Source of the DNA: Keratinibaculum paraultunense
Lineage (GTDB): Bacteria > Bacillota > Clostridia > Tissierellales > Tepidimicrobiaceae
Assembly: GCF_016767175.1 (NCBI RefSeq)
Contig: NZ_CP068564.1
Coordinates: 1,488,001-1,552,000 of the forward strand
Direction: 5' to 3'
DNA: 64,000 bases
Below the pieces are notes generated by a model that was not told where the DNA came from, did no database searches, and saw only the letters and a program-made list of their open reading frames with translations. Positions 17,935 through 55,918 of the stretch are shown in pieces. The translations under genes and the position numbers were made by a program. Position 1 is the stretch's first letter, and each line of letters begins with the position of its first letter.

Positions 17935-17951
17935 AATGTCACCTCCTTTTC

Positions 17952-18188
17952 TTATAATCTCTTACTTTTAATTTTGCTACGATTAAATAAGTGATAAGCT
18001 AGATAAAAACACCAGGGGATCATTCCAGCAAGCCAGAATGCACGCCTGTAACCTCGTCGTCCAAACCAAAATTCTCGTCTGTAACTTGCGTTCAAATAAC
18101 CGGGCACTTTGGAACCAGCACAAAAACCTAACCTCCGTCCAGTTAATGGTCCCATTCCCAAAGGACCAGTTCTGTCACCTCTGGGCAT
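17952..18188 (-). CDS. DUF5320 domain protein (short paralogue)
   Basis: The start at 18188 follows GAGGAGG and gives 78 residues. It opens with MPRGDRTGPLGMGPLTGRRLGFC, nearly the same as its neighbour, but lacks the coiled-coil end and finishes in a hydrophobic stretch and a basic tail (NRSKIKSKRL). This is the first gene of the operon after the palindrome-flanked promoter. The two copies look like an old tandem duplication. Confidence 0.75.
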   Translation of the reverse strand: MPRGDRTGPLGMGPLTGRRLGFCAGSKVPGYLNASYRREFWFGRRGYRRAFWLAGMIPWCFYLAYHLFNRSKIKSKRL

Positions 18189-18253
18189 AATAGTCCTCCT
18201 CATTTTTACAATCCATTTAATGAATTGATTATCCTTTCAACTGTTACTCAGCG

Positions 18254-35666: not shown

Positions 35667-37169
35667 GTGCTGACAATTACTCAAGTAAATTATATACGAG
35701 ATTTATACTTTTGGGAAGGCAAAAATATTACTGAAATTTGTAATCTGACTGGAAGAAATTATCGCACTATTAAAAAATACATAGAACAAGATGACTTTAA
35801 TTCAAAAGAACATAAAGTTAAAAGACCTAATAAATCCGATGTCTTAAGGCCGATCATCAATAAATGGCTTACCGAAGATAAGTTCAGACACCATAAACAA
35901 AAGCATACTGCCAAAAGAATCTATGATAGGTTAAAAGAGGAATATCCTGATTTATTAAAGGTTTCAGAAAGAACCGTAAGGAGAATTGTCAAAGAAGAAA
36001 GGGAAAAAGTTTATGGAGCTGATAATGCCTATCTAAAGCTTGAGCATCCAGGCGGGGAGGCACAAGTAGATTTTGGCTGCTTTAAAGCCTATGAGAATGG
36101 TACATTGAAAGATTTCCATATGCTAGTATTATCATTTCCAAAATCTAATGCAGGCTTTGCAGTAGCCACAAGAAGCGAAACAAGGGAAGCCCTTCTAGAA
36201 GGAATGGTAACTATCTTTAACTTCATGGGCTATGTACCTAATACTATTTGGTTTGACCAAATGTCCTCTGTGGCACTGCGAACTAGGGATGAGAGAGGTG
36301 TTGTAAAACCAACAGACTTCATAGTGAGATTTGCAACCCATTATGGCTTTGATATTAAGCTTTGCAATCCAAACAGTGGCCATGAAAAAGGGAATGTAGA
36401 AAACAAGGTAGGTACCATTAGGAGAAACATTTTCGTTCCTGAGCCAACAATTAAGGATTTAGATGAATTTAACCAAAAGCTCCTTGAGAAATGCCTTGAG
36501 GCCAATAAAGAACTTCATTACCGTCATAAGGTACCAATTAAAGATCTATTTGAATCAGAAAAAACATTGATGATTCCTGTTAACAAGGTAGTCTTTGATA
36601 CAGCTAATTATGAAAACAGAAAAGTGAATAAATATGGACTTGTAGAATATTCAGGATGTCGATATTCAGTAAGCCCAAAATATGTGGGAGAAACTGTAGT
36701 TTTAAAGATAATGGCCAACAAAATAGAAATCCTCACAAAGGATTTATCAGTTAAGATTACAGAACACCCTAGGCTGTTTGAAAGAGGGCAGGAATCCATA
36801 AATTATATAGACTTCATTGACATAATCAAGTTAAGGCCAAATGCCTTGAAATATTTAAGTATATATTCACTACTTCCTACATCATGGCAAGATTATCTTA
36901 AGTCCTTAGATAAAGAATCTTACAGACAAGCCTTTGATGTATTGAGAATGATACTATTAGAAGAAGATATGGACTATGCCGACAAGGTATTAAAAGAAAC
37001 TTTAAAACACAAGTCAATATCCCCAGAGGCTGTAGAGATAACATACAAGCGATTCAAAGAAGACCACACTCTCTTTGAAAGTACAATATATTTTCCAGAA
37101 GATTTACCACCATATGAAGTTGATATCAACCAATATGACCTCTTGCTACTTGGAGGTGAGAGAAGATGA
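35667..37169 (+). CDS. istA: IS21 transposase IstA
   Basis: The 500-residue protein has an N-terminal helix-turn-helix (NITEICNLTGRNYRTIKKYI), the rve DDE integrase core (AQVDFGCF with the first Asp, TIWFDQMSS with the second, and HEKGNVENKVG with Glu), and a C-terminal beta domain. It carries out strand transfer with IstB. The 3' end overlaps istB by 4 bases, as usual. Confidence 0.92.
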   Translation: MLTITQVNYIRDLYFWEGKNITEICNLTGRNYRTIKKYIEQDDFNSKEHKVKRPNKSDVLRPIINKWLTEDKFRHHKQKHTAKRIYDRLKEEYPDLLKVSERTVRRIVKEEREKVYGADNAYLKLEHPGGEAQVDFGCFKAYENGTLKDFHMLVLSFPKSNAGFAVATRSETREALLEGMVTIFNFMGYVPNTIWFDQMSSVALRTRDERGVVKPTDFIVRFATHYGFDIKLCNPNSGHEKGNVENKVGTIRRNIFVPEPTIKDLDEFNQKLLEKCLEANKELHYRHKVPIKDLFESEKTLMIPVNKVVFDTANYENRKVNKYGLVEYSGCRYSVSPKYVGETVVLKIMANKIEILTKDLSVKITEHPRLFERGQESINYIDFIDIIKLRPNALKYLSIYSLLPTSWQDYLKSLDKESYRQAFDVLRMILLEEDMDYADKVLKETLKHKSISPEAVEITYKRFKEDHTLFESTIYFPEDLPPYEVDINQYDLLLLGGERR

Positions 37170-37882
37170 GGGAAGAAATTAGTAAATATCAAAAGAAACT
37201 GAGACTATCCAGTAGCCTTATGGAGATCTATCCAAATATTGAAGCAGAAAGTCATGAGGAATTCTTACTTAAACTACTAAAAGAGCTAAATGAAGATAGG
37301 GAAGAAAAAAGGAGAATCAGAAATTTAAAGAATGCAGGATTTCAAGTATTAAAATCATTAGAAGGCTACGATTACTCACAAATCAGATTTCCAAACAGCT
37401 TAAGGGTACAAGAACTTGAATCACTATCCTTTGTAGATAAAAAAGAAAATTTAATTCTTTATGGCTCAGTAGGAACTGGAAAAACGCATCTATCAGTAGC
37501 CCTTGGAGTTAAGCTGATAAATGAAGGTAAAAAAGCAGTTTTCTATCGAGTCCATGATTTAATCAACCAACTAGAATCAGACGATCAAAAGAAAAAATCA
37601 TCCATTTACAAGAAAATCAATCAAGCGGACCTACTTATCCTTGATGAATGGGGGTACCTTCCCCTTCATCAAGAAGGAGCAAGACTCCTATTTGACATCG
37701 TTTCAATCTGCTATGAAACAAAAAGTATTATCATAACGACAAACATAGAATTTGGAAAATGGAAAGGCTTTTTATTTGATGAAAAGCTTACAGCTGCAAT
37801 AGTAGATAGACTAATACACCACTCACACATGCTAATATTTACAGGAAAAAGCTATCGTATGGCCAACTCATTAATTAGGTAA
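37166..37882 (+). CDS. istB: IS21 helper ATPase IstB
   Basis: The 238-residue DnaA/DnaC-like AAA+ ATPase has Walker A GSVGTGKTH (about 92-100) and Walker B LLILDEWGY. IstB assists IstA by remodelling target DNA. It is complete and overlaps istA by 4 bases. Confidence 0.92.
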   Translation: MREEISKYQKKLRLSSSLMEIYPNIEAESHEEFLLKLLKELNEDREEKRRIRNLKNAGFQVLKSLEGYDYSQIRFPNSLRVQELESLSFVDKKENLILYGSVGTGKTHLSVALGVKLINEGKKAVFYRVHDLINQLESDDQKKKSSIYKKINQADLLILDEWGYLPLHQEGARLLFDIVSICYETKSIIITTNIEFGKWKGFLFDEKLTAAIVDRLIHHSHMLIFTGKSYRMANSLIR

Positions 37883-39076: not shown

Positions 39077-39207
39077 ATGTCAATAATTAGTTACTAAGCA
39101 TATGGAACCCCCTCAAAACTGTAAACACCAAGTACTTTTCTATAAATTTCGAAAAATAACTTTCCCAAATCATTCCCAACTAATATTAATTTTTATTAAA
39201 TCCATAG

Positions 39208-39750
39208 CTATTTATTTTCTTCTTTAATAAAAATATAGATTCCATCAACACCTTCATTATCTTTAGCTTCTTTAAGAAGGTTTATAAGTTCACCACTTTC
39301 AATGTATTTAGGAGTGATTCCATATACACTTACATGTGTATCATCTTTTTCACCATATAAGCTATATTCTGTAAAATTACAGTTATTCTCTAAAAATGCC
39401 TTATGGGCATCCATTAAAACCTTTGCCACTTCTTCTAAGGAGCTATCTTCTAAATCCAACCTGATTAAAACCTCTGAACACAAGGGCAGTGATTTATCGA
39501 ATTCCATATCAAGTTCTAAAATTTTTCTAGCCTTATCATCCATTTTATACATTACCATTGTAGTATTGTTTTCATATCCAAGTTCTTCTGCAATAATTTT
39601 CTTAGCAATGGCAGAATATTCATCTGAAAATCTTTGTAATGTATTAAACTTTCCTAATACATAGCTTTCATAATCATCCCTAATATCACCGCTACGATAA
39701 TATATGGCAAATTTAGTATCTATACTTGTTTTAGATTTAGCTCTTGCCAT
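39208..39750 (-). CDS. Hypothetical protein of the mobile element
   Basis: The 180-residue acidic protein (MARAKSKTSIDTKFAIYYRS.., ending FIKEENK) has no signal peptide or membrane segment and no recognised motif. It is the downstream partner of the HExxH gene (47 bases apart), so the two are likely co-transcribed. Confidence 0.6.
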   Translation of the reverse strand: MARAKSKTSIDTKFAIYYRSGDIRDDYESYVLGKFNTLQRFSDEYSAIAKKIIAEELGYENNTTMVMYKMDDKARKILELDMEFDKSLPLCSEVLIRLDLEDSSLEEVAKVLMDAHKAFLENNCNFTEYSLYGEKDDTHVSVYGITPKYIESGELINLLKEAKDNEGVDGIYIFIKEENK

Positions 39751-39797
39751 ATATGACCCGTCTTTAAAATTATAAATTACTTTTTCTACTTCAAGAT

Positions 39798-40301
39798 CTA
39801 AAATTGAAATTCCTCATCATTGTTAAAAAGATATGTGGTTCCATCGTAAGTAAAATAATAGCGAAAGCTTCTATAAAAATCATCCATTGGGATATAGCCT
39901 TGAGATATCAAGTCTTGATTTTTATATTGAATGGCATGTCTTATTTCATGAAATAAGTTCCATATTATAAACAAACTATTTACTCCAATGTACTCTGGAT
40001 TTAAAAAAATAACTTTTTCTTCTTTATCATAATTAGCAAAAGCTGTTTCAAAACCCTTTTTAGGGATAAATAACAATGCCTTAAGATAGTCATTAAGTTC
40101 ATAATTTTCTACTAGAATTTCAAACATCCAGATAATACTTTGGAGTCTATGACTCTGATTTAATTTCTCCCAATTAGAAAGATAGATTATATCTATAACA
40201 GAATTCCTTGTAATTTTTATACCATTACAATCAAAAGATTCTATTCCTATAATATTATGTTTTTGAATAAATTCATTATGTTTTTCTACTCTATATTTCA
40301 T
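39798..40301 (-). CDS. HExxH-containing metallopeptidase-like protein
   Basis: The 167-residue protein carries FHEIRHAIQYK, a perfect HExxH zinc-protease motif near residue 123. The context resembles small ImmA/SprT-like peptidases encoded on mobile elements, which often cleave a repressor to induce the element. The third metal ligand and the family could not be identified, so it could also be a different metallo-hydrolase. It precedes the 39208 gene by 47 bases. Confidence 0.6.
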   Translation of the reverse strand: MKYRVEKHNEFIQKHNIIGIESFDCNGIKITRNSVIDIIYLSNWEKLNQSHRLQSIIWMFEILVENYELNDYLKALLFIPKKGFETAFANYDKEEKVIFLNPEYIGVNSLFIIWNLFHEIRHAIQYKNQDLISQGYIPMDDFYRSFRYYFTYDGTTYLFNNDEEFQF

Positions 40302-40523
40302 TATAGAATACCCCCATCAACTAATATAAACATTATACTATCGGATTGACCCCTTAATTTTGGACAAGAATTCAATAATACTTCCAATATCATAATATTT
40401 CATTTTGCCCTTGGTTTATTGTACATTAATATTTATCTTCATCAAGGGTAAAGGCTACGCCCCTTAAAGCAAGCCCTTGATTTCAGCTAAATATTAATGT
40501 GTTAGGCACTTGAAGGCAAAGTA

Positions 40524-41500
40524 TTAAAGCTTTATTTTCAAAGGTTTTGCTGTTCCTTCCAATGTTTTATGGTAAAATTCTACTGGTGAAATATATCCTA
40601 AAGAACTATGGATTCTAACTTTATTGTAGAATTTAATATATTCAGATACTGCTTCATAAGCTTCTGTATAGCTTTTAAATTCGTACCTTGACAAACATTC
40701 ATCTTCTAACAATCTATGAAAAGCTTCTATATGGGCATTTTTATTTGGAGTCTTAAATGGTATCCTTTCATGCTCTAATTTTAATTCTTTACAAGTATCT
40801 TGAAATTTATTGCTGATAAATTGTGGGCCATTATCTGACCTTATAATCAAGTTAATTTTCTTATTATAAAGTTCCCGCTTCATTAATCCCCTTTTAAGGG
40901 TTACGATTATGTCTTCAGTTTTACAAGATAATCCCATATGATATTCTACTATATTTCTATCATATACATCTAAAAAGGAAGCTATATAGAAGAATCTATC
41001 TTCACCATGAATATAACCATATTTAACATCTACTTCCCAAAGGGAATTTGATGTTGTTATTTCTCTATTTATAGCTATTTTTCTAGGATATTTAGGTTTA
41101 ATTTTCCTTTGAGGCCTTAGGACCTCAAGTTCTTTACATAATCTATATACTTTTTTCTTATTTATGATTAAATTAAATTTTCTCCCTAATAACACAGTTA
41201 TTTTGTAATAACCATAGTACAATCCCTCTGTTTCTATGATTTCTAATATATATTCTTTTATTTGTTCATCACAAATGCGGTCTCCATCTTTATCAAAAGA
41301 ATAACCAGGAATTGGTCTACCACCTTTATTCGTTATAATATCTTCATTTACATCTTCAGATTTAGCTCTTTTTTTAATGTTGTAATAATAGGTAGACCTA
41401 CTTAAGCCTACAATTTTAAGGACAGTAACTGCGGTATATCCTAGATCAATCCATTTCTTTGCAATGTTAACTTTATCTTCTATTGTGGGTTCGTTTTTTT
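40524..41500 (-). CDS. IS3-family transposase OrfB (made by frameshifting)
   Basis: The frame is open from the A-run at about 41500 and reads NEPTIEDKVNIAKKWIDLGYTAVTVLKIVGLSRSTYYYN, then the DDE core: D in WEVDVKYGYI, D in IIRSDNGPQF and E in NKNAHIEAFHRLLEDE. There is no good independent start codon, so it is made as an OrfA-OrfB fusion. Confidence 0.88.
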
Positions 41501-41788
41501 TAAAAGGTCTCTAAGAATGGCTATTTCTAAATCTTTTTCACCTAGTAATTTTTTCAATTGTTCATTTTCTTCTTCTAAAGATTTAGCATTAATATTATTG
41601 GAATAATTAGAACTTGGAATTAATCCATTTTGCTTCTTTGACTCCCTAACCCAGCGAGTAACAGTGCCAGGAACTAAATCGTGTCTTCTTGCAACTAAAG
41701 AAGCATTGCCTGTTTCTTCTACTTCCTTAACAATTTGACGCTTAAATTCTTCTGGATACCTTTTACCTTTCCATTTCAATTTAGACAA
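41480..41788 (-). CDS. IS3-family transposase OrfA with slippery site
   Basis: The 102-residue protein has a helix-turn-helix (EEFKRQIVKEVEETGNASLVARRHDLVPGTVTRW) and a C-terminal coiled coil. Eight A's on the minus strand (41494-41501) near its end are a typical -1 slippage site that fuses it to OrfB. Confidence 0.9.
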   Translation of the reverse strand: MSKLKWKGKRYPEEFKRQIVKEVEETGNASLVARRHDLVPGTVTRWVRESKKQNGLIPSSNYSNNINAKSLEEENEQLKKLLGEKDLEIAILRDLLKKTNPQ

Positions 41789-41855
41789 CCTCCTATTAAT
41801 TTTTATTTTACTAAATTAGTGTGCGATTGTCCAAATTGGTTAGGGGGTTTAATAG

Positions 41856-42077
41856 TTATGACCTTATAAATTCAAAAACTTTAACCATTATGTCACTTAT
41901 GAAGTGACAATTTTCATTAACATTTAAGATCTTTGTATATCTTAAATATTTTCTAATACATCTTGTATCTTTGTATTCTTTGGTTAAACAAATTACATTT
42001 AAAGGTAGATTTTGGCTGATAAAATAGCCCTTCTTACCTTTATAAATATAGTTAAATAATCTGCATTTAATAGTTTT
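41856..42077 (-). pseudogene. Open-frame fragment of a small protein
   Basis: A 73-residue frame (KTIKCRLFNYIYKGKKGYFI.., LPLNVICLTKEYKDTRCIRK.., ending KVFEFIRS) looks coding in composition but has no start codon. It follows TAG and lies directly against the IS3 end. It is probably an element gene whose 5' part has decayed. The gap also holds a small hairpin (TGTCACTTATGAAGTGACA). Confidence 0.35.
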
Positions 42078-42115
42078 CTAACACTCAATAAGTACTATAT
42101 GCTTCAAATCTTTAT

Positions 42116-43645
42116 TTAAACTAATAATCTTATTACCAGTTTTTTTACCCCATTAAGTTGCTTCTTATATTCTCTCCTAATATATTTAGATTCTTCTAAT
42201 CTTTTCAGTAAAATACTTATATTACTTGATGTAGTGCGTAATTCTTTTGCTAAAGTATTTAATGAAGGATTGCAAATTCCTTTGTTATAAGCATATTTTA
42301 AAAGCAATACATAAAGCCTAAATCCTCCAGGAGAAACACCTCTTTCAATAGCTTTATTTATAGCGTCATTGCTTACTAATGTATACCCTAAGCCAAAAGT
42401 ACTTTGTGAAATTGCTTTATAAAAGTTTTCCTCTCTTTTTCGTTTGTTACCATTTATTATTTTTACATAGCCCAGTTTCTTTAGAGTACTTAAGCTATCT
42501 AAAATTGTCTTATTGCTCATACATATCTTACCTGAGCTGTTAATTAGCTCCTCATTTAATGCACTTGTTGTTAGGCCTTCTTTGTTTCGGACTAATACTG
42601 AGTAAATTAGTAAATCATTTCCAGTTAACTTTTGTATGTCGTTCAACAATCGGTTATTAATTCTCACCATCTTGTCTAGGTTAATATTACCTATAGACAT
42701 AGAAAAATTACAATCAGGTCGATTACAATATTTATCAAGAATCTGTTGCAATTCGGGCTTATTTATCTTGCAACCTAACAGTTTGTAGTCTTCATACCAA
42801 TACATATTAAAGTCTTTTATAAGTTTTCTTATACTTTCCGGTGGATTGTTTCGATTATTCCAATCAAGGATAGCTTGTTGACTTATGTCTCTCGGAAATC
42901 CTTTTACTTGCAGCCACTTTGTTAGTCTGCCTAAAGCAAAGTTCCTCTCACCTTTTGATACACCTTTTATTATTTTTTCAATGCAAGGTCTATCGGTTTT
43001 AATCTCATCTATTATACTTTTTGTAAGCTCCAATTTGGCTTTTAAAGGCTTTTCTGAGACTTGTCCGATACAATCCTTCAAAAGTTCCTTAAATAGCCTA
43101 TAATCGTAAATTAAAGAGTAATCAGCTTGTAGTATTTTGTACTCTAATGGCCTTTCTTTATCTTTAATATTTAGTGTACCTGGCAACCTCATTATTCTAG
43201 CTTTATCTGTTGCCTTTATATCTGCATCTGTAATATCTGCTATTATTCTTAACACTTCTGTTACCTCTTGTTGCCTTTCCTTTAACAACCAATAAGCATG
43301 TATACCATTACCACTTGAAATTAATATAGAAGCTTTAGGCAGTCCTACTGCCATTATTATATCTTGTACCTTCTTAACTCTTTCTTCAACACTTAATCCC
43401 ATCATTCCTTTGTCAAAATCAAGCCACAAAACCCTTGTTGTATTGCAGCACCTAGTCTTACCACTCTTTTTGTTTCTACTAAAAACCCCAAAATACACAT
43501 TTTTATCCTTTGGTGGTGTATATTTGTTTATATCTTGTTGCTTAAGAAAGTGTTGCGTTACATTTCCTTCATGATCGATTTCCCTAATTTCCAAATATTC
43601 GTTAGTTCCATTAATTATTTCTTCTAAAAATCTGTTTAATTCCAT
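42116..43645 (-). CDS. AEP-type primase/plasmid replication protein
   Basis: The start at 43645 follows AGGAGG (509 residues). The N-terminal 190 residues look like an archaeo-eukaryotic-type primase (RepB/PrimPol-like) palm: VLWLDFDKG with two catalytic acidics, SSGNGIHAYW with the conserved His, and ARIMRLPGTLN. The C-terminal half has winged-helix-like segments (LTTSALNEELINSSG, NPSLNTLAKELRTTSSNISILLKRLEES). It probably starts replication of the element after excision. Its ribosome binding site is sequestered in a hairpin (separate entry). Confidence 0.8.
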   Translation of the reverse strand: MELNRFLEEIINGTNEYLEIREIDHEGNVTQHFLKQQDINKYTPPKDKNVYFGVFSRNKKSGKTRCCNTTRVLWLDFDKGMMGLSVEERVKKVQDIIMAVGLPKASILISSGNGIHAYWLLKERQQEVTEVLRIIADITDADIKATDKARIMRLPGTLNIKDKERPLEYKILQADYSLIYDYRLFKELLKDCIGQVSEKPLKAKLELTKSIIDEIKTDRPCIEKIIKGVSKGERNFALGRLTKWLQVKGFPRDISQQAILDWNNRNNPPESIRKLIKDFNMYWYEDYKLLGCKINKPELQQILDKYCNRPDCNFSMSIGNINLDKMVRINNRLLNDIQKLTGNDLLIYSVLVRNKEGLTTSALNEELINSSGKICMSNKTILDSLSTLKKLGYVKIINGNKRKREENFYKAISQSTFGLGYTLVSNDAINKAIERGVSPGGFRLYVLLLKYAYNKGICNPSLNTLAKELRTTSSNISILLKRLEESKYIRREYKKQLNGVKKLVIRLLV

Positions 43646-43653
43646 AATTTCCA

Positions 43654-43672
43654 CCTCCTATTAAATAGGAGG
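43654..43672 (-). promoter_or_regulatory. Hairpin that hides the primase ribosome binding site
   Basis: CCTCCTAT / ATAGGAGG with a three-base loop is a perfect 8-bp stem that contains the AGGAGG used by the primase gene, directly after the U-run of the preceding terminator. Read-through RNA would fold and block translation, so expression would need a dedicated promoter or another factor. Confidence 0.65.
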
Positions 43673-43675
43673 AGA

Positions 43676-43709
43676 AAAAAAGCCTCATAACTTTTTAAGT
43701 CATGAGGCT
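43676..43709 (-). terminator. Terminator after the replication-relaxation gene
   Basis: Arms AGCCTCATAACTT and AAGTCATGAGGCT with one mismatch are followed on the minus strand by TTTTTTTCTCC. Confidence 0.88.
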
Positions 43710-43728
43710 TAACAAGTTTAGTAAACTA

Positions 43729-44700
43729 TTAATTGATATCAAACACATGTGGTATGGAATACATTCTGTTATTTTTTGAATACATTTTAAATATCTGCTT
43801 ATCCTTTTTAGAATAAAATAAAAAAGAACCCTGTTTTAATCTAACACCATAAAAATGCTTTCTACTAGGGGCATATATATAGGTGTTCTCTGGTGGTTCT
43901 TCTAATATAAGTCTTAGTTGGTTATTTCCAGAAATTAATTCTCCAATATGCAGGATTTCACCATTGTACTCTGCTTTAAATAGAGGCTCTTGATACGATA
44001 GAAATTTGATTCCTGGAAACTGTTTTTTTGTAATACTTAAGAATTCTTTAATATAAAAATTGTGGTCATTAACGATATTAGGTAGATATTCTGTTGCGAA
44101 GCTCCATGGAATAAAATAAGCGTTTTGCAAAAATAATTTTTCCCTAAATTTACGTGAAATAATAAAGTGTTTAGCTCCTGGTATAACTTCTGATTTTATG
44201 AAACCTGCTATTCTACCTAAATCGTATCTTCCTATTTTATTACCCAAGACATAAATGAATATTGGATTGTCATTAGGGACAACACAACTAACTGGCATAA
44301 AATTTTTTAAACTATATTTTTCTATAGCCTGACGCTTTGATATTAAACTTGGAATTCTTGCAAGCAAATTACCTACTAGATTCGCTACATCAAGTCTGTC
44401 TTCCTTTGGTACTACATATCTAGGATCTATAGTGTAGCCAAGTTCCCTCAATGTTTTACTTGTTGCATAATATATAGCCGATATCCTTTGTGCAAATAGT
44501 CTATTATTCTTTTTATTTTGTGCATAATAATACACCTGCTTTAAATAACCATTATCTTGTAACTGCTTCAATCTTTTATATCCATAAACACTTTCATTAA
44601 AAAAAATTTCAACTATTTGTGGTCCAGGTAGACCATTAAAGTCTATTATTTTTTTCAGTAACTCTATATCTCTATCTTGTAACCTAATACCACTTGACAT
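43729..44700 (-). CDS. Replication-relaxation family protein
   Basis: The start at 44700 follows GGAGGTAC (323 residues). The N-terminal winged-helix region (LQDRDIELLKKIIDFNGLPGPQIVEIFFN, VYGYKRLKQLQDNGYLKQV) and the following domain match the replication-relaxation (MobC-like) family found on plasmids and integrative elements. Together with the primase it is likely part of the element's replication module. It is followed by its own terminator. Confidence 0.75.
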   Translation of the reverse strand: MSSGIRLQDRDIELLKKIIDFNGLPGPQIVEIFFNESVYGYKRLKQLQDNGYLKQVYYYAQNKKNNRLFAQRISAIYYATSKTLRELGYTIDPRYVVPKEDRLDVANLVGNLLARIPSLISKRQAIEKYSLKNFMPVSCVVPNDNPIFIYVLGNKIGRYDLGRIAGFIKSEVIPGAKHFIISRKFREKLFLQNAYFIPWSFATEYLPNIVNDHNFYIKEFLSITKKQFPGIKFLSYQEPLFKAEYNGEILHIGELISGNNQLRLILEEPPENTYIYAPSRKHFYGVRLKQGSFLFYSKKDKQIFKMYSKNNRMYSIPHVFDIN

Positions 44701-45014
44701 CTTGTACCTCCTTATCATCAAATAAATCATAATTATAAAAAGACAACTTTCACATTAAAGACTTAAACATCTCGAAAAAAAAGTGTAGTAAGAAAGAAAA
44801 ATTATTCATTGATAAAGCCCCACTAACTACTCATTAATCAGCTACACTTTAAATTTTTTAAAATACTTTAAAATACAATGGGGTAACTCATTTTATAGCA
44901 GCTATTCAGATATAAATTTTATCAATAGATAAGAAAAGCCTGTTATTGAAGTAGTTTTTAAGCAAAAAATTAAAGCTTAACTTACTACTTTTTACTTTGT
45001 ATTGACACTATTTC
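44701..45014. other. Intergenic region between RusA-like and replication-relaxation genes
   Basis: This 314-base stretch holds the terminator-like structure at 44774-44850 and A/T-rich direct repeats (TTTAAAATACTTTAAAATAC near 44860). No gene was found. A promoter for the downstream gene is likely but could not be fixed. Confidence 0.45.
44774..44850 (-). terminator. Terminator-like structure with a long loop
   Basis: A 9-bp stem AAAGTGTAG / CTACACTTT encloses about 53 bases and is followed on the minus strand by T9. The unusual loop length could hold an inner fold. Confidence 0.6.
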
Positions 45015-45563
45015 TTACTCTTCTTCTAAAAAAGGAATCAAAGTTTTTTCTATTTGGTTTTCATATTGCACTACAAATATTTCCGTTCGAGGATTTTCTT
45101 TATCTATTCTTGCTTCTTGAATAACTACAGGAACATGCTCTAGGTTATCATCTTTTCCAATAACACCAGCATACATAAGTCCATCTACTATCAGTTTCCC
45201 TATGAAATTGTCTGTATCACAAATCCGTGGAACATAGAATACCATATATACTATAGTAGGATCTATTCTTTCTCCTTCATAACCCTCCAATGCCTTATGG
45301 ATGATTGAATACCATCTATTTCTTGTTTTTTGATAAGCAATGCTATTTAAAGAACCATTAACTAATTCGTTTCTATAATAAAGACTAATCTTAGGAGGAT
45401 ATTCAGGGATAATAATTTTCAAAACTCCTCTAATAACTTCATGTCCTAGATTAAGATTAATATCTTCTAAAAATAAATTTGCTTTTTCCATTTCCTCTAT
45501 TATTTTCGATAATTCTATTTGTGCTTCAACTAATCTATTCTGTAATTTAATAAATCTATTCAA
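45015..45563 (-). CDS. RusA-like Holliday-junction resolvase
   Basis: The likely start is TTG at 45563, after GGAGGTGG (182 residues). A short coiled coil precedes the RusA-type core: VYMVFYVPRICDTDNFIGKLIVDGLMYAGVIGKDDNLEHV, with the conserved acidic residues (DTDN, VDGL, KDD) that bind magnesium. RusA enzymes cut four-way DNA junctions in phages and mobile elements. A terminator and a tandem hairpin RNA region lie just upstream, so expression may be attenuated. Confidence 0.8.
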   Translation of the reverse strand: MNRFIKLQNRLVEAQIELSKIIEEMEKANLFLEDINLNLGHEVIRGVLKIIIPEYPPKISLYYRNELVNGSLNSIAYQKTRNRWYSIIHKALEGYEGERIDPTIVYMVFYVPRICDTDNFIGKLIVDGLMYAGVIGKDDNLEHVPVVIQEARIDKENPRTEIFVVQYENQIEKTLIPFLEEE

Positions 45564-45617
45564 TTTTCCACCTCCTTCACTTTTTATAAAAATTGATACA
45601 CTGTGACAAAAAAGCAA

Positions 45618-45662
45618 AAAAACCCAAGGTCAAATCTGTGAACATCAATTTAACCTTGGGGC
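45618..45662 (-). terminator. Terminator upstream of the RusA-like gene
   Basis: Arms CCCAAGGTCAAAT and TTTAACCTTGGG are followed on the minus strand by TTTTTTTGCTTTTTT. It ends about 55 bases before the rusA-like start, in attenuator position. Confidence 0.85.
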
Positions 45663-45839
45663 TAATTATCTTATATTAAATTATATAAAAATATAAAATT
45701 CCTGATTTTGGGCACAGTAATCCTGCTGTACCAAAACCAGAACAAAAATCTAACAAATAAATGGAATTTTGCACACAGGTATCCTGTGGTCCTAAAAGCG
45801 GAGCAAAAATCTAACAGTTTTGTATTTTATTTTATTGCT
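45618..45839 (-). ncRNA. Candidate small RNA or riboswitch-like leader with tandem hairpin domains
   Basis: Minus strand: a -10 TATAAT (45846-45851) with TTGTAT 17 bases upstream is followed by two imperfect copies of a 50- to 55-base unit (45763-45816 and 45704-45755). Each runs from TGTTAGATTTTTG to a CAAAA-type closing arm and encloses a short hairpin (CACAGG-ATA-CCTGTG in one, GGTACAG..CTGTGCC in the other). A terminator follows at 45618-45662. The structure is coherent, but no known RNA family was recognised. Confidence 0.5.
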
Positions 45840-46049
45840 ATTTTTATTATAGTACAAAAATTCAAACAATACAAGTATAAATGTTTATATTTTTAAAAAC
45901 TAAATAAGTCAGTAATTTCTTAGTAAAACCTTTAGACACATTAATTTTTGAGTATTGCCTCCATATTAGACCAATAGAGCCTAATATTAGACCACTAAGT
46001 GCCTAAAAATAGACCACCAAATGCCAATTAGTAGACCATTTATTTAAGA

Positions 46050-46102
46050 CCTCCTATATAATGAAGGTGCATGCTTAATGCATGACTACATTATATAGGA
46101 GG
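46050..46102 (+). promoter_or_regulatory. Hairpin sequestering the istA ribosome binding site
   Basis: Perfect 14-base arms CCTCCTATATAATG (46050-46063) and CATTATATAGGAGG (46089-46102) enclose the AGGAGG of istA, with further pairing inside. Read-through transcripts from outside would fold and not be translated, a known way for insertion sequences to limit transposase. Confidence 0.78.
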
Positions 46103-46108
46103 TTTTTT

Positions 46109-47662
46109 ATGATTCAATACCGTAGAATACTTGATTTGCATTTCAAGGGAACAAGCCAAAGAACCATTAGCTCTAGCGTAGGTCACTCCAGGCAAACTGT
46201 ATCAGATGTAGTTATTAAGGCTAATCATCTAGGTTTAGTGGAGTTAACTGATGAGATGACCAACCAATGGCTAGCTGAGTTCTTATTCCCTGAAAAAGAA
46301 GCCATCGCAAAAGGGTATTTCCCAGTAGATTGGGAAGTTGTTCATCGAGAGCTACAGAAGAAAAATATGACATTAAAATTACTCCATTATGAATATGCAC
46401 AATGTGCTAGGGATAGTAAGAAGATCCCTTATGCCTATAGGACTTTTTGCAGACATTATGGAAAATACGCAAAGAAGTACAAATTAACCATGCCAATTAG
46501 GCGTAAACCAGGTGAAATTATGGAAGTTGATTGGGCTGGAGATAAATTGTCTATTAAAGATAGAAATACTGGTGAAAAGTTACCTATCTATATATTTGTA
46601 GCTACACTCCCGTACAGTCAATTATTTTATGCTGAAGGGTTTTTTAACATGACATCACAAAGTTGGTTAATGGCACATATTCATGCATTTGAATATTTTA
46701 ATGGGGTCGCAGAGGTTTTAGTTCCTGATAACTTAAAGACAGGTGTGAATAAAGCTCTGAGAGGAGAGCCGATTTTAAATGAGGCATATCGTGATTTAGC
46801 TAATTATTATGGAGCAACTATTGTTCCAGCACGTGTTAAATCTCCTAAGGATAAGCCTAGTGTTGAAGGAAGTGTTGGTTACATTAGCCGACAGATCATT
46901 GCTTCATTGAGATATTATCAGTGCTTTAGTTTGGATGACCTAAATTCAAAAATATTAGAAGAAGTAGATAAGTTAAATGATTAACCTTTCCAAAAAAGAG
47001 AAGGCTCAAGAAGAATTGTGTATAACGAAGAGGAAAAGAGCAAGCTTATTCCCCTCCGTTACCCACGTTACCAACTATCGGAATGGATAACTGCAAAGGT
47101 TCAATTAAACTATCATATCCAAGTGAACCGCATGTATTATTCCGTCCCTTATGAGTATGTCCAAAGTGATGTTGATATCAGAATCACTAAGGACCTAATT
47201 GAAGTATACTTCAAAGATATGAGAATTGCATCACATAAAAAGCTTTTAGGAGAAATTGGCGAATTTTCCACTAACCCTAATCATATGCCTGAGAACCATA
47301 GAAAATTTCTTGAACACACTCCTGATCAGGTTAGGGATTGGGCCAATACCATAGGATCCAATACAGAGAGATTTGTTGAATACACCTTAGATAATCATGT
47401 TGAGAAAAAAGCACTAACAATTTTACTGTCTCTTAAAAATCTAACTAAATATTATTCGGATGACCTTATTGAAAAGGGCTGTGAAACCTTAATGAGTATT
47501 TCACGAGTACCAAGTTTTTCTGTTCTCAAAACAATATTAAAGCGTATGAAAGATAGCCAGAAATCAAAAGAAAAAGGAACTTTAAATGAGACAAGTACAG
47601 ATAATGATTATGGCTTTGTTAGAGGTGCCAAATATTTTGGAGGTGTAAAAAATGAGGAATAA
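46109..47662 (+). pseudogene. istA: IS21 transposase IstA interrupted by a stop codon
   Basis: The ATG at 46109 follows AGGAGG. A helix-turn-helix (TSQRTISSSVGHSRQTVSDVV) and the DDE core (MEVDWAGDKL, VLVPDNLKTGV, KDKPSVEGSVG) are intact. A single TAA at 46981-46983 interrupts the frame (KLND stop PFQKREGSRR), and the same frame then continues to 47662. One base change from a sense codon (probably TTA) explains it. The C-terminal part is probably not made. Confidence 0.85.
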
Positions 47663-48419
47663 AGAAACTTTACGTAAATTAGCTGAAATGCACTTATCAG
47701 GTATGGTTGAGCTCTATGAAGAGCAAACAAGAAACTCAGATTACCAAGATATGACCTTTGACCAACGCTTTAATCTGCTTGTTGATTACGAATATTCTCG
47801 CCGTCAATCCAATAAATTAAATAGGTTAATTAAACAAGCTACATTCAACGATCCAACAGCATCTATTGAGGATATTGAATATCATCCTGATAGGCACCTA
47901 GATAAACAGTTGATATTAGAACTAGCTACATGTAACTATATACGTGAAGGCCATAATATTATTCTAATGGGGGCCTCAGGGAACGGTAAAACATGGATTT
48001 CAAATGCATTTGGTGTACAAGCCTGCCGTCAGCTCTTTAAAGTTAAGTACATTCGTTTACCAGAGCTAATCGATGAGTTGACAGCAGCTAAATATGCTGC
48101 GGATGGAAGTTATCGTAAGATTGTATCTAAGTACAAGAAGATAGAGTTGCTAATTCTTGATGAATGGTTAATTACTCCATTATCCCAAGAAGAAGCAATT
48201 CATGTTTTTGAAATTATTGAAGCCAGGTTAAAAAATTCCTCAACAATATTTTGTTCTCAATATGCCCCAGAAGGCTGGCATTCAAAGATTGAGAATGTCC
48301 AAATAGCTGATGCAATACTTGACCGTATAGTACATGATTCTTATCAGATACTGATAGATGGAGAGGTTTCTATGCGGGAGCGTCATGGTATTCACTATCA
48401 AAGGTCCAATCAACCTTAA
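47652..48419 (+). CDS. istB: IS21 helper ATPase IstB
   Basis: The 255-residue AAA+ ATPase has Walker A GASGNGKTW and Walker B LLILDEWL. It is complete and overlaps the istA end by 11 bases. Without a functional istA the element depends on a related copy elsewhere. Confidence 0.9.
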   Translation: MRNKETLRKLAEMHLSGMVELYEEQTRNSDYQDMTFDQRFNLLVDYEYSRRQSNKLNRLIKQATFNDPTASIEDIEYHPDRHLDKQLILELATCNYIREGHNIILMGASGNGKTWISNAFGVQACRQLFKVKYIRLPELIDELTAAKYAADGSYRKIVSKYKKIELLILDEWLITPLSQEEAIHVFEIIEARLKNSSTIFCSQYAPEGWHSKIENVQIADAILDRIVHDSYQILIDGEVSMRERHGIHYQRSNQP

Positions 48420-48679
48420 GGATTTCAATTTAAGAAGATAAATTAAGAAAGCCTCATAATTGGGGCTTTCTAAACTTTTGGTCTCCTGTAGGCACCGAGT
48501 GGTCTATTTAGTGGCACTTAATGGTCTAAAAGTGTGCACTAGTGGTCTATTTCAACGGCAATACTCAATTTTATAATTATCCAATCTCAACCATTTAAAA
48601 TACTGTATTCTAAGCTAGACACATTTTTGGCTCCTTTATAAAAATAATATATTTTTTAGGCACGTACTAAAAAAAGAAA

Positions 48680-48719
48680 ACTACCCTCAACTCTTTAGAA
48701 ATTCAAGGAATGAGGGTAG
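48680..48719 (-). terminator. Terminator after the gene ending at 48757
   Basis: Arms CTACCCTCAACTC and GAATGAGGGTAG are followed on the minus strand by TTTTCTTTTTTT. Confidence 0.8.
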
Positions 48720-48756
48720 GAACATCTTTGGCACTTTAGGATTAATTTAATTGTTA

Positions 48757-49257
48757 TTAATAATCGATTATTTTTTCAATTTTATCGTCAACTCTTTGCC
48801 ATATATTTCTATAACCACTTTTGTAATATATAAATTCATATATTCTCCTTCTATGGCCATTGAATGCTTCCACATAAATATTTCCTTCTTGATCCATTAC
48901 ACGTAACCTTGCTATGTATCCTTCTGGCAACTCAAATTCTATCCCATTGCACATAAATTCCCCTTCACTTGTAACATACGAATTAGTTAGATTATATTCA
49001 GTAATTATTGCTAGTTCATCTAAAATCCCCAAATTAATTAATTTTTTTATATTAACTTGATGTCTTTCGGGAACTAGATGATATGCTTTATGAACTAGAA
49101 CTAAAGCTAGATAATATATGTATAGTTCTTCAGTTAATACCTTTTCAGCTACATCTGCTTTATATGTCTCTGAGCTGTTTCTAGGAATTAATTTAAAAAT
49201 CATTTTATTAAGAGAGTTTCTTTGTTCTTTAGGTTGGAAATAGATTATATTCGACAT
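48757..49257 (-). CDS. Hypothetical protein of the mobile element
   Basis: The 166-residue protein is soluble, with a helical N-terminal region (LTEELYIYYLALVLVHKAYHLV) and a beta-rich C-terminus (IEFELPEGYIARLRVMDQEGNIYVEAF). No known domain was recognised. It starts 12 bases after the zinc-finger gene on the same strand, so the two form a small operon with its own terminator. Confidence 0.6.
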   Translation of the reverse strand: MSNIIYFQPKEQRNSLNKMIFKLIPRNSSETYKADVAEKVLTEELYIYYLALVLVHKAYHLVPERHQVNIKKLINLGILDELAIITEYNLTNSYVTSEGEFMCNGIEFELPEGYIARLRVMDQEGNIYVEAFNGHRRRIYEFIYYKSGYRNIWQRVDDKIEKIIDY

Positions 49258-49835: not shown

Positions 49836-51316
49836 GGCTCTTTGTCAATATTTGGGGTGGGATTTTCTTAAATCCCGCTCCATTACTATTTTTACCCTTA
49901 TTTTTGTGTTATGATTGAGATGGATAGAATTACATGTATTTTGGGCACACTTAAATAAACCTAGCTAAAATGTAGGCTTCTTACAGGTATTCACTTTTAG
50001 AAGTTTAGCTTGTACAGTGAAGTATTCTATTACGAAATCTATAAAAGTTTTTAAGTCCAAAGGATATTCGTTTTAATACTTTGATTTTATTGTTGAAACC
50101 TTCAGTTGGACCATTAGTATAACCATATTTAAAGGCATTTTTAATTTCCTTATGCCATCTTCTATATGTAGCTGCACATTTTTCAAACTCTGGTATTCCA
50201 GAGCTTTCTGCATTTTGAATCCACTTAGCTAATTCCCTACATTGGTAGGAATATTTATCGCTTTGACAGATTTCATAAAACCATTCTTTAAGTTTATGGG
50301 CAATACGTAGGTCATCATTATATAAAAGCATTAAATCAACGGCTTCTTTATTCTCATCCTTAAGCTTATGATATCGCGTTAAAATCAGTTTTCTACTCCG
50401 TTTATAGTATTTTCTAAGAGTAGCAGTCATAGATTTTTGTATGCGTTTCCTGACATTTTCAATAGCCCAAGTTACATGCCTAATAAAGTGGTATTTATCG
50501 ATAACAATTATAGCATTAGGGAAAAATACTTTAGCTAAATCAACGTAAGGCTGCCACATGTCGCATACAAAGAACTTCACCTTATTCCTTTCCTTACGAG
50601 AAAATTGCCTAAAGTAGCCTACAAGATCACTTTGACACCTGTCAGGAATAATATCTAAAACCTTATTGTTTTCCCCATCAACAAGAATACACTGATACTT
50701 TCCAGTCTCTGCATTCCCCTTAAACTCATCAATACATAGAACCTTAGGCAGTGTAGGAGTACCATAGTTGACATGATTAAAGATACGAATAACAGTAGAA
50801 ACAGAGACGTTGGCCACTTTAGCTACAGAAGTTAGACTAGTTAGCTTGGTAAGCTCTTGGCAAATAAAAAATGCTAAACGGTTAGTCATGCGATGATAAC
50901 GAGGTAGAAAGTCATAAGACTCATAAAACCTTTTTCCACAAGAGCAAGCATACCTTCTTTTTCGAAGTACAAGATATGTGTGCTTAAATTGAAAAGGTAA
51001 ATCCTTAATTGTCTGTTCTCTGTAGTCATGAATTTTTTTAGTTTAGCACCACAAGCAGGGCAAGTATGCTCTTTTGGATCAGTTGTAATGTAGATTTTAA
51101 CGAAAGAATCCTCATGCGATATTTTAGTTACTTTAACCCCTTTTAAATCTAATAATTGTGTGATAAAATTAGATTGCACTTGTGAATAAACCTCCTTTGT
51201 ATGTTTTTTTTAGCCAATTAACATTTTAGCAGGTTTATTTCACGAGTGCATTTTATTTTTAGAAAAAATAAATGTTAGGGTAAATTATTTTCCACCCCAA
51301 CATTTATTATAGAACC
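49836..51316 (-). mobile_element. ISL3-family insertion sequence (transposase frameshifted)
   Basis: The ends read GGCTCTTTGTC..TTGGGGTGG (left) and, reversed, GGTTCTATAAT..TTGGGGTGG (right). TTAATTTT is repeated directly on both sides (49828-49835 and 51317-51324), a perfect 8-bp target duplication as usual for ISL3. Confidence 0.92.
50005..51179 (-). pseudogene. ISL3 transposase, frameshifted
   Basis: The N-terminal part (residues 1-97 in one frame) has the zinc motif CPACGAKL, and the main part from 50889 has the DDE domain (FKGNAETGKYQCI, VIDKYHFIRH, NGPTEGFNNKIK). The expected linker (HDYREQTIKDLPFQFKHTY.., YACSCGKRFYESYDFLPRYH) is still readable in the other frame. The break is a one-base shift in an A-run near 51030-51040. 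The enzyme is probably inactive. Confidence 0.85.
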
Positions 51317-51720: not shown

Positions 51721-53012
51721 TTAAGCTGCTTTACTCAAAGATTTCATTGTGTTTATTGCTATGGTACCTGATATTAGTGCTATGCAATTTAATATTGCGT
51801 GGACCTTGACTTTTTTAATACCTTTAGACCTTACATTATCGAGGTTTAGGTAGCATTTTAATCTACTAAAACACCTTTCTACGGAGGTTCTTTTATCATA
51901 TTGCTTTTTCCAAACATCTGTGTATCGTAAAGGATAACCATAATACCTTGGATTTTCTTTATAGTTTACTTTAAGGGTATAGCCGTAATTAGAGCTTGAG
52001 CACCAGTTCATCCCGTGTGGACAATCACACCGTCCTAGGGCATGAGGGCATCTAAATTTTAAATAATTTCCATCTTTGCCCCAGTAAACTAACTTGTAAC
52101 CTCCTGAACAAATAGGATTAAAAGCTTCATCTAATCCTTCAGGTGGAGCATAGCTACCCCTTGGATTGTAAGCTATTATTGGAATGCCTTGATATTCGTT
52201 GATTATGGTCTTGTAGACATAATCAAGATCATAGGCAGAATCCATAGCATAATATTTAGGTTTAAAGGTATCTTTATAGTTTTCAAAGAATTGCTTTATC
52301 AAAGGCAAAGCCATGGTACCATCATAATTACTAGCTGGGGAGATTAGCAGATCTAGTGGCAACTCACTTTTGGAATCACAAAGAATATGGAGTTTCCAAC
52401 CAAACCATCGTATGTTGTTGCCATTGGTATCTTTTTTCATTCCCCAGTTAGGATTAGTACCGTCATGAACAATGTTTTTCTTTGGCTTAGCAGCTTCAAA
52501 AGAATCCAATTTAGTTGAATCTATTGAGATATGCTCTCCGTCAATGATATCAAGTTCTTTAGCTTTAATAACTAAGTCATGAAAAATCTGTTCAAGAGAT
52601 TCAGAGTTTGATAGTTTTTCAAGAAATCTACTAAAAGTGGATTCAGATGGAACCTTACCAAGTACATCAAAACCACAGCAATATCGAAGTACAGGATTTT
52701 CTTTAAGCTTGACAACTAAATCCTTAATAGTATCAATTTTTTCAACCTGCATTGCGATTAATGAATAAATAAAAACCTCAGGCTCATAACCTTTAGGACC
52801 CTTGGAATTAGAAGGTTTTCTGAGTTCGTTAGCAAGTTTAGAGACATCAATATTAGCTAAAATTAATTCTAATCTAGATTGTTGCTGAAATTTAATAATT
52901 TCTTTAAAGGAAAAAAGAGATGTTTGTCGAATATACATGTTAAGTGATTTCACCCCCATCGTTTTTTGTTTTGGTATCACTTAACATATTCGATATTAAT
53001 GGGGTGAAATCC
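51651..53012 (-). mobile_element. IS1182-type insertion sequence (ends approximate)
   Basis: A single intact transposase gene is flanked by sequences that share GGATTT and ATTAATAT in inverted orientation (left GGGATTTTGAAATTATTATT..; right, reversed, AGGATTTCACCCCATTAATA..). The ends are uncertain, and no target duplication was established. Confidence 0.55.
51721..52980 (-). CDS. IS1182-type transposase
   Basis: The 419-residue DDE transposase has SRLELILANIDVSKLANELR at the start, a dimerisation-like region, the first Asp in ISIDSTKL, the second in YYAMDSAYDLD, and the Glu in KRTSVERCFSRLKCY. A cysteine-rich loop (CPHALGRCDCPHGMNWC) is an insert within the catalytic domain. A shorter start at 52938 is possible. 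A hairpin covers the leader (GATTTCACCCC / GGGGTGAAATC). Confidence 0.85.
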   Translation of the reverse strand: MIPKQKTMGVKSLNMYIRQTSLFSFKEIIKFQQQSRLELILANIDVSKLANELRKPSNSKGPKGYEPEVFIYSLIAMQVEKIDTIKDLVVKLKENPVLRYCCGFDVLGKVPSESTFSRFLEKLSNSESLEQIFHDLVIKAKELDIIDGEHISIDSTKLDSFEAAKPKKNIVHDGTNPNWGMKKDTNGNNIRWFGWKLHILCDSKSELPLDLLISPASNYDGTMALPLIKQFFENYKDTFKPKYYAMDSAYDLDYVYKTIINEYQGIPIIAYNPRGSYAPPEGLDEAFNPICSGGYKLVYWGKDGNYLKFRCPHALGRCDCPHGMNWCSSSNYGYTLKVNYKENPRYYGYPLRYTDVWKKQYDKRTSVERCFSRLKCYLNLDNVRSKGIKKVKVHAILNCIALISGTIAINTMKSLSKAA

Positions 53013-53072: not shown

Positions 53073-53810
53073 TTATATATTTGAAAGTAAATCTATAAAA
53101 TTGCTACTAAATAATAGTTTTACTTCTTCTTCAGATTTCCCTAATATTTTTGATGATAGCATATAAAATTTATCAAAGTAATCAATAGTAAAATCATTTT
53201 TTGTATATTTTGTAAATGGAGAATCGCTTTCTATTAATAATTTGCTTGATGGCACAGTCAGCAAAAGATTTTTTCCTTTTTTAGTATTTAACATGTCAAT
53301 ATTTAAAGAAAAATAATATCCTTTTGCAATAGCACGCTCAAGCTCTTTATCAGTGCCAGTAAACCAATGAAGGATTATCCTGTTTTTACTTTCTCCTACA
53401 ATATCAATTACACTATCTACGGCATTTCTACTATGAATGCTAATAATTTTATCATTAAAAAAGCTGCAAGAATCAATAATTTTCTCAAAGATTAAAATCT
53501 GTTCTTTATTAACTCCATTAGAAAAATCTAAACCTATTTCACCTATATATCTACTCTCTGCTACATAATCTAAAAACAATTTGAGTTGACTCTTAAATTG
53601 AACAGCAAGTTCTGGGTGTAGTCCAAGAGCAAACCTACTATATTTTAAATTGTGATATTTAGCTTTATATCTAAGATAAAGTTTTGGTATATTAGTCATA
53701 ATAATGGAATAAATCTTGTTTTCCTCAATGAATTGAAGTTTTTCTTTAATATCATCATATAAGTCAAGGTGGGTATGAGTATCATATTTTATTATCTTCA
53801 TAATAATCAA
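53073..53810 (-). CDS. qatD: QatD: TatD-like nuclease of the Qat anti-phage system
   Basis: The 245-residue protein is a TatD-family metal-dependent nuclease. Every metal ligand is visible: H12 and H14 (THTH), E91 (GEIGLDF), H126 (SIHSRN), H148 (ILHWF) and D196 (ESDSPF). In the qatABCD system it is the nuclease component. The start is probably TTG at 53810 (ATG at 53801 also possible), and it overlaps qatC by 29 bases. The IS1182-type element ends about 60 bases past its stop. Confidence 0.88.
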   Translation of the reverse strand: MIIMKIIKYDTHTHLDLYDDIKEKLQFIEENKIYSIIMTNIPKLYLRYKAKYHNLKYSRFALGLHPELAVQFKSQLKLFLDYVAESRYIGEIGLDFSNGVNKEQILIFEKIIDSCSFFNDKIISIHSRNAVDSVIDIVGESKNRIILHWFTGTDKELERAIAKGYYFSLNIDMLNTKKGKNLLLTVPSSKLLIESDSPFTKYTKNDFTIDYFDKFYMLSSKILGKSEEEVKLLFSSNFIDLLSNI

Positions 53811-55080
53811 TTAACACTCCCTCTAATTCAGCCATTCCTCGTATTAAAAGTGATTCATAAAGTTCAACATTAGAATCTATTGGTCCAGACATTTGAATAT
53901 CGAGAAACGCCTTTTTAGCATCAAATTTCTCAAGTCCAAGTAAATATGAATTAAAATTCATCCTTGCTGTTGGTCCAGATGAAAAGTTTGAATCAAAATA
54001 AGTTGTCATATCCTCAATACCAGCAGACTTAATAGCTGCCCTTCTTATTACACATGGAAAACATGTTCCACAATGTTTAGTTTCACTTTCTCCACGCATT
54101 CTGCCTAGATCAGGATGAGAGCAAGACATTGTATTGACGATATTATCGATTAAAAATTGTTTATTTTTACACTCTGCAATCATTTCTCCTTTTGTTTTGA
54201 ACTGATATGGATTAATAAAAGTTACTTTTAAATTCAAGTTATCTATTAATTGCTGAAAAAGCTTTAAATAATGTGGATGTGTAGTTCTTGTACTACTTGA
54301 ACCTATTCTTGAAAAAGTTAATGGTATATTTAATGATATATAACCATTTTCAGGTATAAATAGGTTTATTCTCCTATCAAAACATGAAGCTATAGCTATT
54401 GCATGGCTAAAAAACATAAATGAACGAGATCTCATCGTATCCTCTTTTCCACCTAGTGGAGCAGCATAAAAAGAGAAAAAATGGTTTTCAGAAATTGAAT
54501 ATTTATTTACTAGCTCCTGTTTCAAAACTTTTTGATACTCTAATGTACCTTTTCCTCCTCCATAATGGCTTACAAAAATAATATCATTACCCTTTTCTTC
54601 CAACAAATCTATGGCTCCAATAAATGAGTCGAGTCCTCCAGAGAACATACATATCTTATTGATATCTAGTGTGTCAATTCTTCTCTGAGTCATCTGAACT
54701 CTGCGCATACTCTCTTCTAAAGTCAATTCTCTTTCTCTGAATGTAAATTCCCAATTGTCACCAGTAAGAAAATTTGTTATTTGTTTCAGTAGTTGTTTAT
54801 TGCTTTCCATCAAATCTATATTTAGTACTGGTAAATGCAAATGTATGCTTCTTTCCCACCCATCTAAAGCTTCTTTTCTCAAGATTATTCGATCAGCAGC
54901 GTAAACAGCTAATGATATCATTAAAAGGTCTATTGCTTCTATAGATGGAAATTTTGGTAATAATTCTAGTTTTTCCTTCCAAAAAGTATATCTATAATCA
55001 TCGAAACTACATGTTATGTAATCCTCATCAATAGCATATTCTTCATCAGAAGAATATTTATACACAATATTTATCACCAC
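53782..55080 (-). CDS. qatC: QatC: QueC-like protein of the Qat system
   Basis: The 432-residue protein has the PP-loop SGGLDS (147-152) typical of QueC/7-cyano-7-deazaguanine synthase relatives and a C-terminal cysteine set (C320, C337, C340, C343; HCGTCFPC) like QueC's zinc site. The N-terminal 140 residues are unique to this branch. In Qat systems it is thought to modify a substrate or protein with a nucleobase-like group. The start is GTG at 55080. QatB ends 20 bases upstream. Confidence 0.88.
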   Translation of the reverse strand: MVINIVYKYSSDEEYAIDEDYITCSFDDYRYTFWKEKLELLPKFPSIEAIDLLMISLAVYAADRIILRKEALDGWERSIHLHLPVLNIDLMESNKQLLKQITNFLTGDNWEFTFRERELTLEESMRRVQMTQRRIDTLDINKICMFSGGLDSFIGAIDLLEEKGNDIIFVSHYGGGKGTLEYQKVLKQELVNKYSISENHFFSFYAAPLGGKEDTMRSRSFMFFSHAIAIASCFDRRINLFIPENGYISLNIPLTFSRIGSSSTRTTHPHYLKLFQQLIDNLNLKVTFINPYQFKTKGEMIAECKNKQFLIDNIVNTMSCSHPDLGRMRGESETKHCGTCFPCVIRRAAIKSAGIEDMTTYFDSNFSSGPTARMNFNSYLLGLEKFDAKKAFLDIQMSGPIDSNVELYESLLIRGMAELEGVLIDYYEDNKI

Positions 55081-55100
55081 TACACCCCTTTAAGACAAAA

Positions 55101-55916: not shown

Positions 55917-55918
55917 GA

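Follow-up and report, generated by a model that had tools for sequence, protein, structure and literature searches.

The window analysed, a 64,000-nucleotide stretch of the 2.31-Mb genome of Keratinibaculum paraultunense, contains a duplicated 51-nucleotide unit and an intrinsic terminator on the minus strand, followed in order by genes for a RusA-like nuclease, an orphan protein and a RepA-like replication protein. The surroundings are rich in mobile functions, and the feature sits in what looks like an integrated mobile island. A large serine recombinase, possibly the island integrase, is encoded at 31872-33605 on the minus strand, and a complete QatABCD anti-phage defence operon, with matches to all four of the QatA, B, C and D models, lies at 53073-57736, also on the minus strand. 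An IS21-type element occupies 45949-48567; its terminal repeats are 22 bp long, and it is flanked by a target duplication of 5 bp, ATTTT. Further transposase-type genes are at 35667-37882, 40524-41788, 50005-51179, 51721-52980 and 58227-59663; the families represented are IS21, ISL3, DDE_Tnp_1 and UPF0236, that at 40524-41788 being of IS3 type as judged by eye only. Four transposase-carrying insertions fall within 40-53 kb. Together the RepA-type gene, the serine recombinase, the Qat operon and the IS elements presumably make up one island.

The gene nearest to the feature (45015..45563, minus strand) begins with a TTG codon at 45563-45561 behind a GGAGG sequence. Its product is a divergent RusA-like nuclease, which matches PHROG 1682 (E 8.3e-13) and PHROG 34 (E 4.4e-10) and has D-x-D-N and D-D aspartates that are invariant in five aligned sequences; Pfam (up to E 1) and PADLOC (up to E 0.001) gave no match. 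Homologues (the best 80 of 108, and 39 of 39) are mostly 25-38% identical, with up to 49% identity over short segments. Downstream of rusA lies a gene for a 333-residue protein (43729..44730, minus strand) that is without a match in Pfam, NCBIfam or PADLOC and has a weak match to PHROG 9996 (E 0.0027). Of 249 genomes of the order, its own is the one in which this orphan gene was found, and the structure model of its product (pLDDT 38) is too low in confidence to use. The third gene (42116..43645, minus strand) encodes a RepA-like protein with a primase-type N terminus and a C-terminal winged helix, 27.7% identical to RepA of pCD6 and 24.7% identical to that of p10 (Sarcina sp. JB2), and with a weak RepB_primase match (E 0.00096) that is below the curated cut-off. 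In front of repA (43712-43625, minus strand) there is a terminator hairpin, then an 8-pair hairpin over the Shine-Dalgarno sequence; this stretch folds with z -6.60. The reading frames of rusA, the orphan gene and repA are unbroken.

The two units, which the sequence-only reading had described as imperfect tandem copies, are indeed present on the minus strand as direct repeats (D1). Unit A (45766..45816), the first along the presumed transcript, and unit B (45705..45755) are identical at 40 of 51 positions (78%) and are spaced 61 nucleotides start to start. In 20 first-order Markov simulations of 64 kb, the maxima were 31-34 matches; the two-unit repeat exceeds chance. The window holds a second pair with 40 of 51 matches, at 17885-18190 with an offset of 254. 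The closing arms ATTTTTG and CAAAA and the core CAGGAT are, as originally described, unchanged between the copies, as is a 13-base flanking block, and 11 other positions differ. Each unit contains a dyad, CACAGG-ATA-CCTGTG in A and GGTACAG...CTGTGCC in B. Between unit B and the terminator lies an A+T-rich spacer of 43 bases (45661..45703, minus strand), with 12% G+C vs 33% for the window, and a plus-strand frame of 62 residues with a TTG start overlaps the units.

By blastn there is no further copy of the unit in the window, the best other match being 20 letters at 90%. A possible inverted third copy over the rusA ribosome site is weak: the local alignment with unit A is equalled in 15 of 2398 control windows and that with unit B in 605 of 2398, and the profile score is just 0.3 bits. 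The unit is absent from the ends of the IS3-type element, and the idea that it is a transposon end was rejected. With regard to a coding remnant, both units keep one frame open, and 6 of the 11 differences fall at its third codon position, which is only weakly unusual; one encoded peptide gave a single match against plasmids, at E 6.

Upstream of unit A, a TATAAT box is present at 45851-45846, where the sequence-only reading had placed a promoter, within a promoter-like site TTGTAT - 17 - TATAAT (45846..45874, minus strand) that has 9 of 12 consensus letters. The -35 element matches at 3 of 6 positions, and the site is not above chance: a scan of 44000-48000 gave 13 promoter-like sites vs a shuffle mean of 21.7, i.e. 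fewer, and this site is missing from its list. The upstream promoter is at chance level and is a candidate, a possibility. The IS21-type insertion lies upstream of the site, which it leaves unbroken. A second promoter-like site, a consensus match only, lies 3' of the terminator (45581..45609, minus strand), and reads either as TTGTCA - 15 - TATAAA (10 of 12) or as TTGTCA - 17 - TAAAAA (9 of 12).

The terminator itself (45616..45660, minus strand) is strong and beyond chance, and its position before the rusA-like start, likewise proposed from the sequence alone, is confirmed. It has a 14-bp stem (45660-45623) with a 10-nt loop, then seven T, and folds with z -3.81, none of 200 shuffles being as good. 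On the plus strand no T run follows the stem, so the terminator is one-directional; its end is 53 bases from the TTG codon of rusA. A custom finder scored it at 20, vs a best score of 16 in six simulated strands, and found seven sites in the window, all on the minus strand, vs five in the six simulated strands altogether; a standard terminator scan omits it, presumably owing to a loop limit of 8 vs the loop of 10. Beyond the IS21-type element, a terminator-like hairpin at 48655-48722 (z -2.95, equalled by 1 of 200 shuffles) belongs to the gene at 48757-49257; the custom finder, with its stricter limits, does not list it. Between this hairpin and the terminator before rusA there is no minus-strand frame of at least 50 residues outside the IS21-type element, except for a 5' extension of rusA.

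The fold of the 256-nt leader (z -4.43) surpasses that of every one of 200 shuffles, with much of this value contributed by the terminator. Among 711 windows of 125 nt, each compared with 20 shuffles, the units rank 32nd (z -2.83) and the terminator 15th (z -4.26). Unit A alone gives z -2.40 as minus-strand RNA and -2.28 for the plus strand, and unit B gives -3.80 on both; since both strands fold about equally, folding cannot separate an RNA from DNA dyads. Prefix folds predict three distinct, mutually compatible hairpins, one for each unit and one for the terminator.

The predicted folds of the two units differ from one another. Unit A forms a three-way junction in which CACAGG pairs with CCTGTG and the GG of the core is paired, whereas unit B forms a long hairpin whose loop contains CAGGATTA, the core being inside an 8-nt loop. 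An inner hairpin around CAGGAT had been proposed for both units; the shared core is there, but a common hairpin is not. When the folds are transferred, 6 of 17 pairs of the fold of A are lost in B, and 9 of 17 pairs of the fold of B are lost in A; in neither of these folds is a pair altered at both of its positions. The consensus from RNAalifold is a third, weak fold (-3.95 kcal/mol), the energy of which is reached by 77 of 500 column shuffles; its two double changes, as far as they go, favour a shared structure.

Searches of several kinds found the unit in its home genome only. Rfam gave no matches at gathering thresholds over the whole window, the sequence-only reading too having recognised no known class, and 11 sub-threshold matches in a permissive search of 45540-45960 (best E 0.35), none of which holds. 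DNA searches returned short pieces throughout, both from plasmids (E 0.3-0.9, among the best 20 of 59 records) and from phages (10 records, E 0.08-1). Among 199 relatives, matches with E <= 0.01 occurred in 81 genomes, including the home genome, and fell mainly on A+T-rich portions of the query. The palindromic core ACAGGATACCTGTGT has short matches, of 23-25 of 25-27 letters, in four of these relatives (G058, G032, G046 and G068), with longest stop-free stretches of 53-69 residues, so that they are not clearly coding. By eye, the matches in G058, G032 and G046 also sit before another gene and that in G068 is accompanied by a long stem; the remainder of the unit was not seen around any of the four, and nor was a further copy. 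One more match, in G029, lies inside a stop-free stretch of 299 residues. We judge the core matches in relatives to be chance or convergent.

A sequence-only profile of 60 positions, R1, was built from units A and B, which it scores at 55-56 bits. Above 22 bits it finds the home genome only, across overlapping sets of 391 (E <= 0.01), 248 (E <= 0.01) and 398 (E <= 0.001) genomes; nine weak single matches elsewhere score 16.8-21.8 bits, and 7 of the nine are in stop-free stretches of 205-816 residues. The other two, L178 and L179, lie in stop-free stretches of 30 and 54 residues, the match in L179 covering only model positions 2-35. No unit was found with R1 near the RusA homologues, at 80 loci from viral contigs, 39 from genomes and 3 from phages, nor at 3 repA loci, including that of the home genome; plasmid locus L039 gave one match, at 11.4 bits (E 0.084). 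A pattern search of viral contigs gave 11 loci with a single match each, 9 of them in stop-free stretches of 123-1881 residues and two (L042 and L048) in stretches of 53 residues, and R1 found no unit at any of the 11. A tandem 13-mer pattern had no match in viral contigs, and one exact pattern had none in GTDB genome contigs, a search that misses diverged relatives, as a two-sequence profile or an exact pattern generally would. RusA, RepA, the orphan protein and the 48757 protein, each queried alone, gave no viral relatives. Among the best 10 of 104 papers, a literature search found no title on such a leader before RusA, which does not prove absence from print. There is thus no second copy of the unit in the plasmids, phages, viral contigs, GTDB contigs (with one exact pattern) or four genome sets searched; as these searches turned up no relative that shares the arrangement, it cannot be shown to be under selection.

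These results bear directly on the proposal, made from the sequence alone, that the locus is a tandem riboswitch or a small RNA. A short terminated RNA or leader is possible, but a tandem riboswitch is not supported: no Rfam aptamer class matches, no conserved covarying structure was seen (within the limits of a two-sequence comparison, neither unit's own fold shows a compensatory change), no other occurrence turned up within the searches made, no second genome with the unit was found, and rusA is not a metabolic gene. The locus probably acts either as a short leader with a regulatory role or as a site for protein binding, and nothing shows a new riboswitch. A more general caution is that a repeat, a TATAAT box and a terminator in succession mimic a tandem riboswitch, a reading that is unsupported without a second genome or covariation.

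The preferred reading, held tentatively and at rather less than an even chance, is that the feature is the terminated 5' leader, or attenuator, of rusA. Transcription would start near 45840 on the minus strand and would pass through both hairpin-forming units, with most transcripts stopping at the intrinsic terminator 53 bases before rusA. Expression of rusA and the orphan gene would then come solely from readthrough, or from the second promoter past the terminator, and the leader would hold it low until termination shifts. We infer the transcript, its attenuation and the relevance of the duplicated unit to attenuation. A short terminated RNA or leader is the most economical explanation because the terminator is strong and one-way and follows no minus-strand frame of at least 50 residues outside the IS21-type element; a terminator without a preceding protein gene implies a short transcript, if the terminator is in use. 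As in attenuators, an intrinsic terminator stands before the first gene, and it points towards rusA, which supports the leader reading, as do the better-than-shuffled fold of the 256-nt leader, the compatible hairpins of the prefix folds and the observation that repA too sits behind a terminator hairpin and a hairpin over its Shine-Dalgarno sequence. Counted against it are the chance-level promoter, the overlapping 62-residue plus-strand frame and the outcome of a search for an antiterminator, which found none: upstream pairing of the terminator arms does not exceed that of shuffles, 356 of 500 of which equal the 5' arm and 110 of 500 the 3' arm. The second promoter-like site (10 of 12) would, if used, make the leader unnecessary for rusA. 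If it is a working attenuator, the leader would show how an integrated island silences a Holliday-junction-type nuclease and nearby genes.

Alternatively, though on present evidence this is on the unlikely side, the repeats may act as DNA, i.e. as paired sites bound by a protein of the island, whether RepA, the orphan protein or a repressor, and serve as operators or as part of a replication origin. Consistent with such a role are the dyad in each unit, the identical 13-base flank, the about equal folding of the two strands, the adjoining segment with 12% G+C and the RepA-type protein with a winged-helix end encoded 2 kb away, to which may be added the possible weak inverted third copy over the rusA ribosome site, although the latter is unsupported by unit B or by the profile. 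However, two related plasmids have 27- and 35-bp arrays behind repA rather than a pair spaced at 61 and placed 2 kb before it, there is no comparable array within 39200-45960, and sites acting as DNA leave the one-way terminator unexplained. Were they DNA-binding sites, the units would mark a control point or the origin of a RepA-type island carrying a Qat defence operon.

It is unlikely that the units are a functionless duplication in a decaying island, with the terminator left over from an earlier arrangement. The four transposase-carrying insertions within 40-53 kb fit such decay, as do the lack of a second occurrence in the searches made, the finding that neither unit's own fold contains a compensatory change, and a consensus fold that does not surpass shuffles. 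Against it, the 13-base block and the core have stayed identical while 11 other positions differ, and the rusA, orphan and repA frames are intact.

Also unlikely, and ranked next, is that the feature is a small RNA in its own right, about 225 nt long, and that rusA is expressed from a separate promoter; unit A could then mask the rusA ribosome-binding site. The feature has its own terminator and there is a promoter-like site past it, and the predicted pairing of unit A with the rusA start region (-32.2 kcal/mol) is as strong in none of 500 dinucleotide shuffles. Against this reading, 1 of 1312 other stretches of 57 nt in the window reaches the same strength, the pairing of unit A is one of five that were tried, and that of unit B is not unusual (61 of 500). 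Moreover, in the full RNA the Shine-Dalgarno sequence is predicted to pair mainly with the U-rich tail after the terminator (about 0.6-0.66) and less with unit A (0.11-0.27), and an mRNA from the second promoter would exclude part of the paired region. A broader proposal, which we regard as improbable, is that an island RNA of about 225 nt carries two copies of an undescribed 51-nt module and regulates rusA or the replication genes, whether it does so as a leader or by acting in trans, for instance with unit A covering the rusA ribosome site.

The motif bound by CsrA is A-N-GGA in hairpin loops. The genome encodes CsrA, but none of the four GGA sequences in the leader carries an A two bases before it, and a role as a CsrA sponge was rejected. 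A type III toxin-antitoxin locus, in which a repeat RNA antitoxin and a terminator precede a toxin gene, is very improbable: a tandem repeat, presumed to be transcribed, and a terminator do stand before a gene here, but the downstream protein is RusA-like, with neither a Pfam match up to E 1 nor a PADLOC match up to E 0.001, and is no ToxN/CptN/TenpN-type toxin.

Several described systems resemble the locus in part. In ssiA and ssiB of RSF1010 (PMC4434180), a hairpin with single-stranded flanks, similar to the units here, is recognised by the plasmid primase; there is one site per strand there, whereas here there are two on the same strand, and the one pointer to priming is the weak RepB_primase match of RepA. 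The plasmids pCD6 (Clostridioides difficile) and p10 (Sarcina sp. JB2) share with this island a related RepA and direct repeats near repA. By contrast with the locus, their repeats are arrays of 35 bp (pCD6) and 27 bp (p10) lying behind repA, and R1 has no match in either. As regards an iteron replication origin, the locus does have two long units and an A+T-rich segment, but these are 2 kb from repA and do not resemble the arrays of the two plasmids.

The ToxIN, CptIN and TenpIN loci (PMC5812544) have the same order of parts, i.e. repeat RNA, terminator palindrome and protein gene. They differ in that the protein here is a RusA-like nuclease rather than a ToxN-type endoribonuclease, and in the form of the repeat, with two long units of 51 nt spaced at 61 here vs 2.9 repeats of 34 nt in ToxIN.

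The closest parallel to the preferred reading, that of a terminated leader, is with repR of pIP501, a plasmid replication gene with an attenuated leader, for which PMC4981023 describes the use of an antisense RNA and CopR. The present leader differs in carrying a unit in duplicate and in being followed first by rusA rather than rep. In both cases, however, a long untranslated leader with hairpins and a terminator precedes a gene of a replication-type element, and readthrough would decide its expression.
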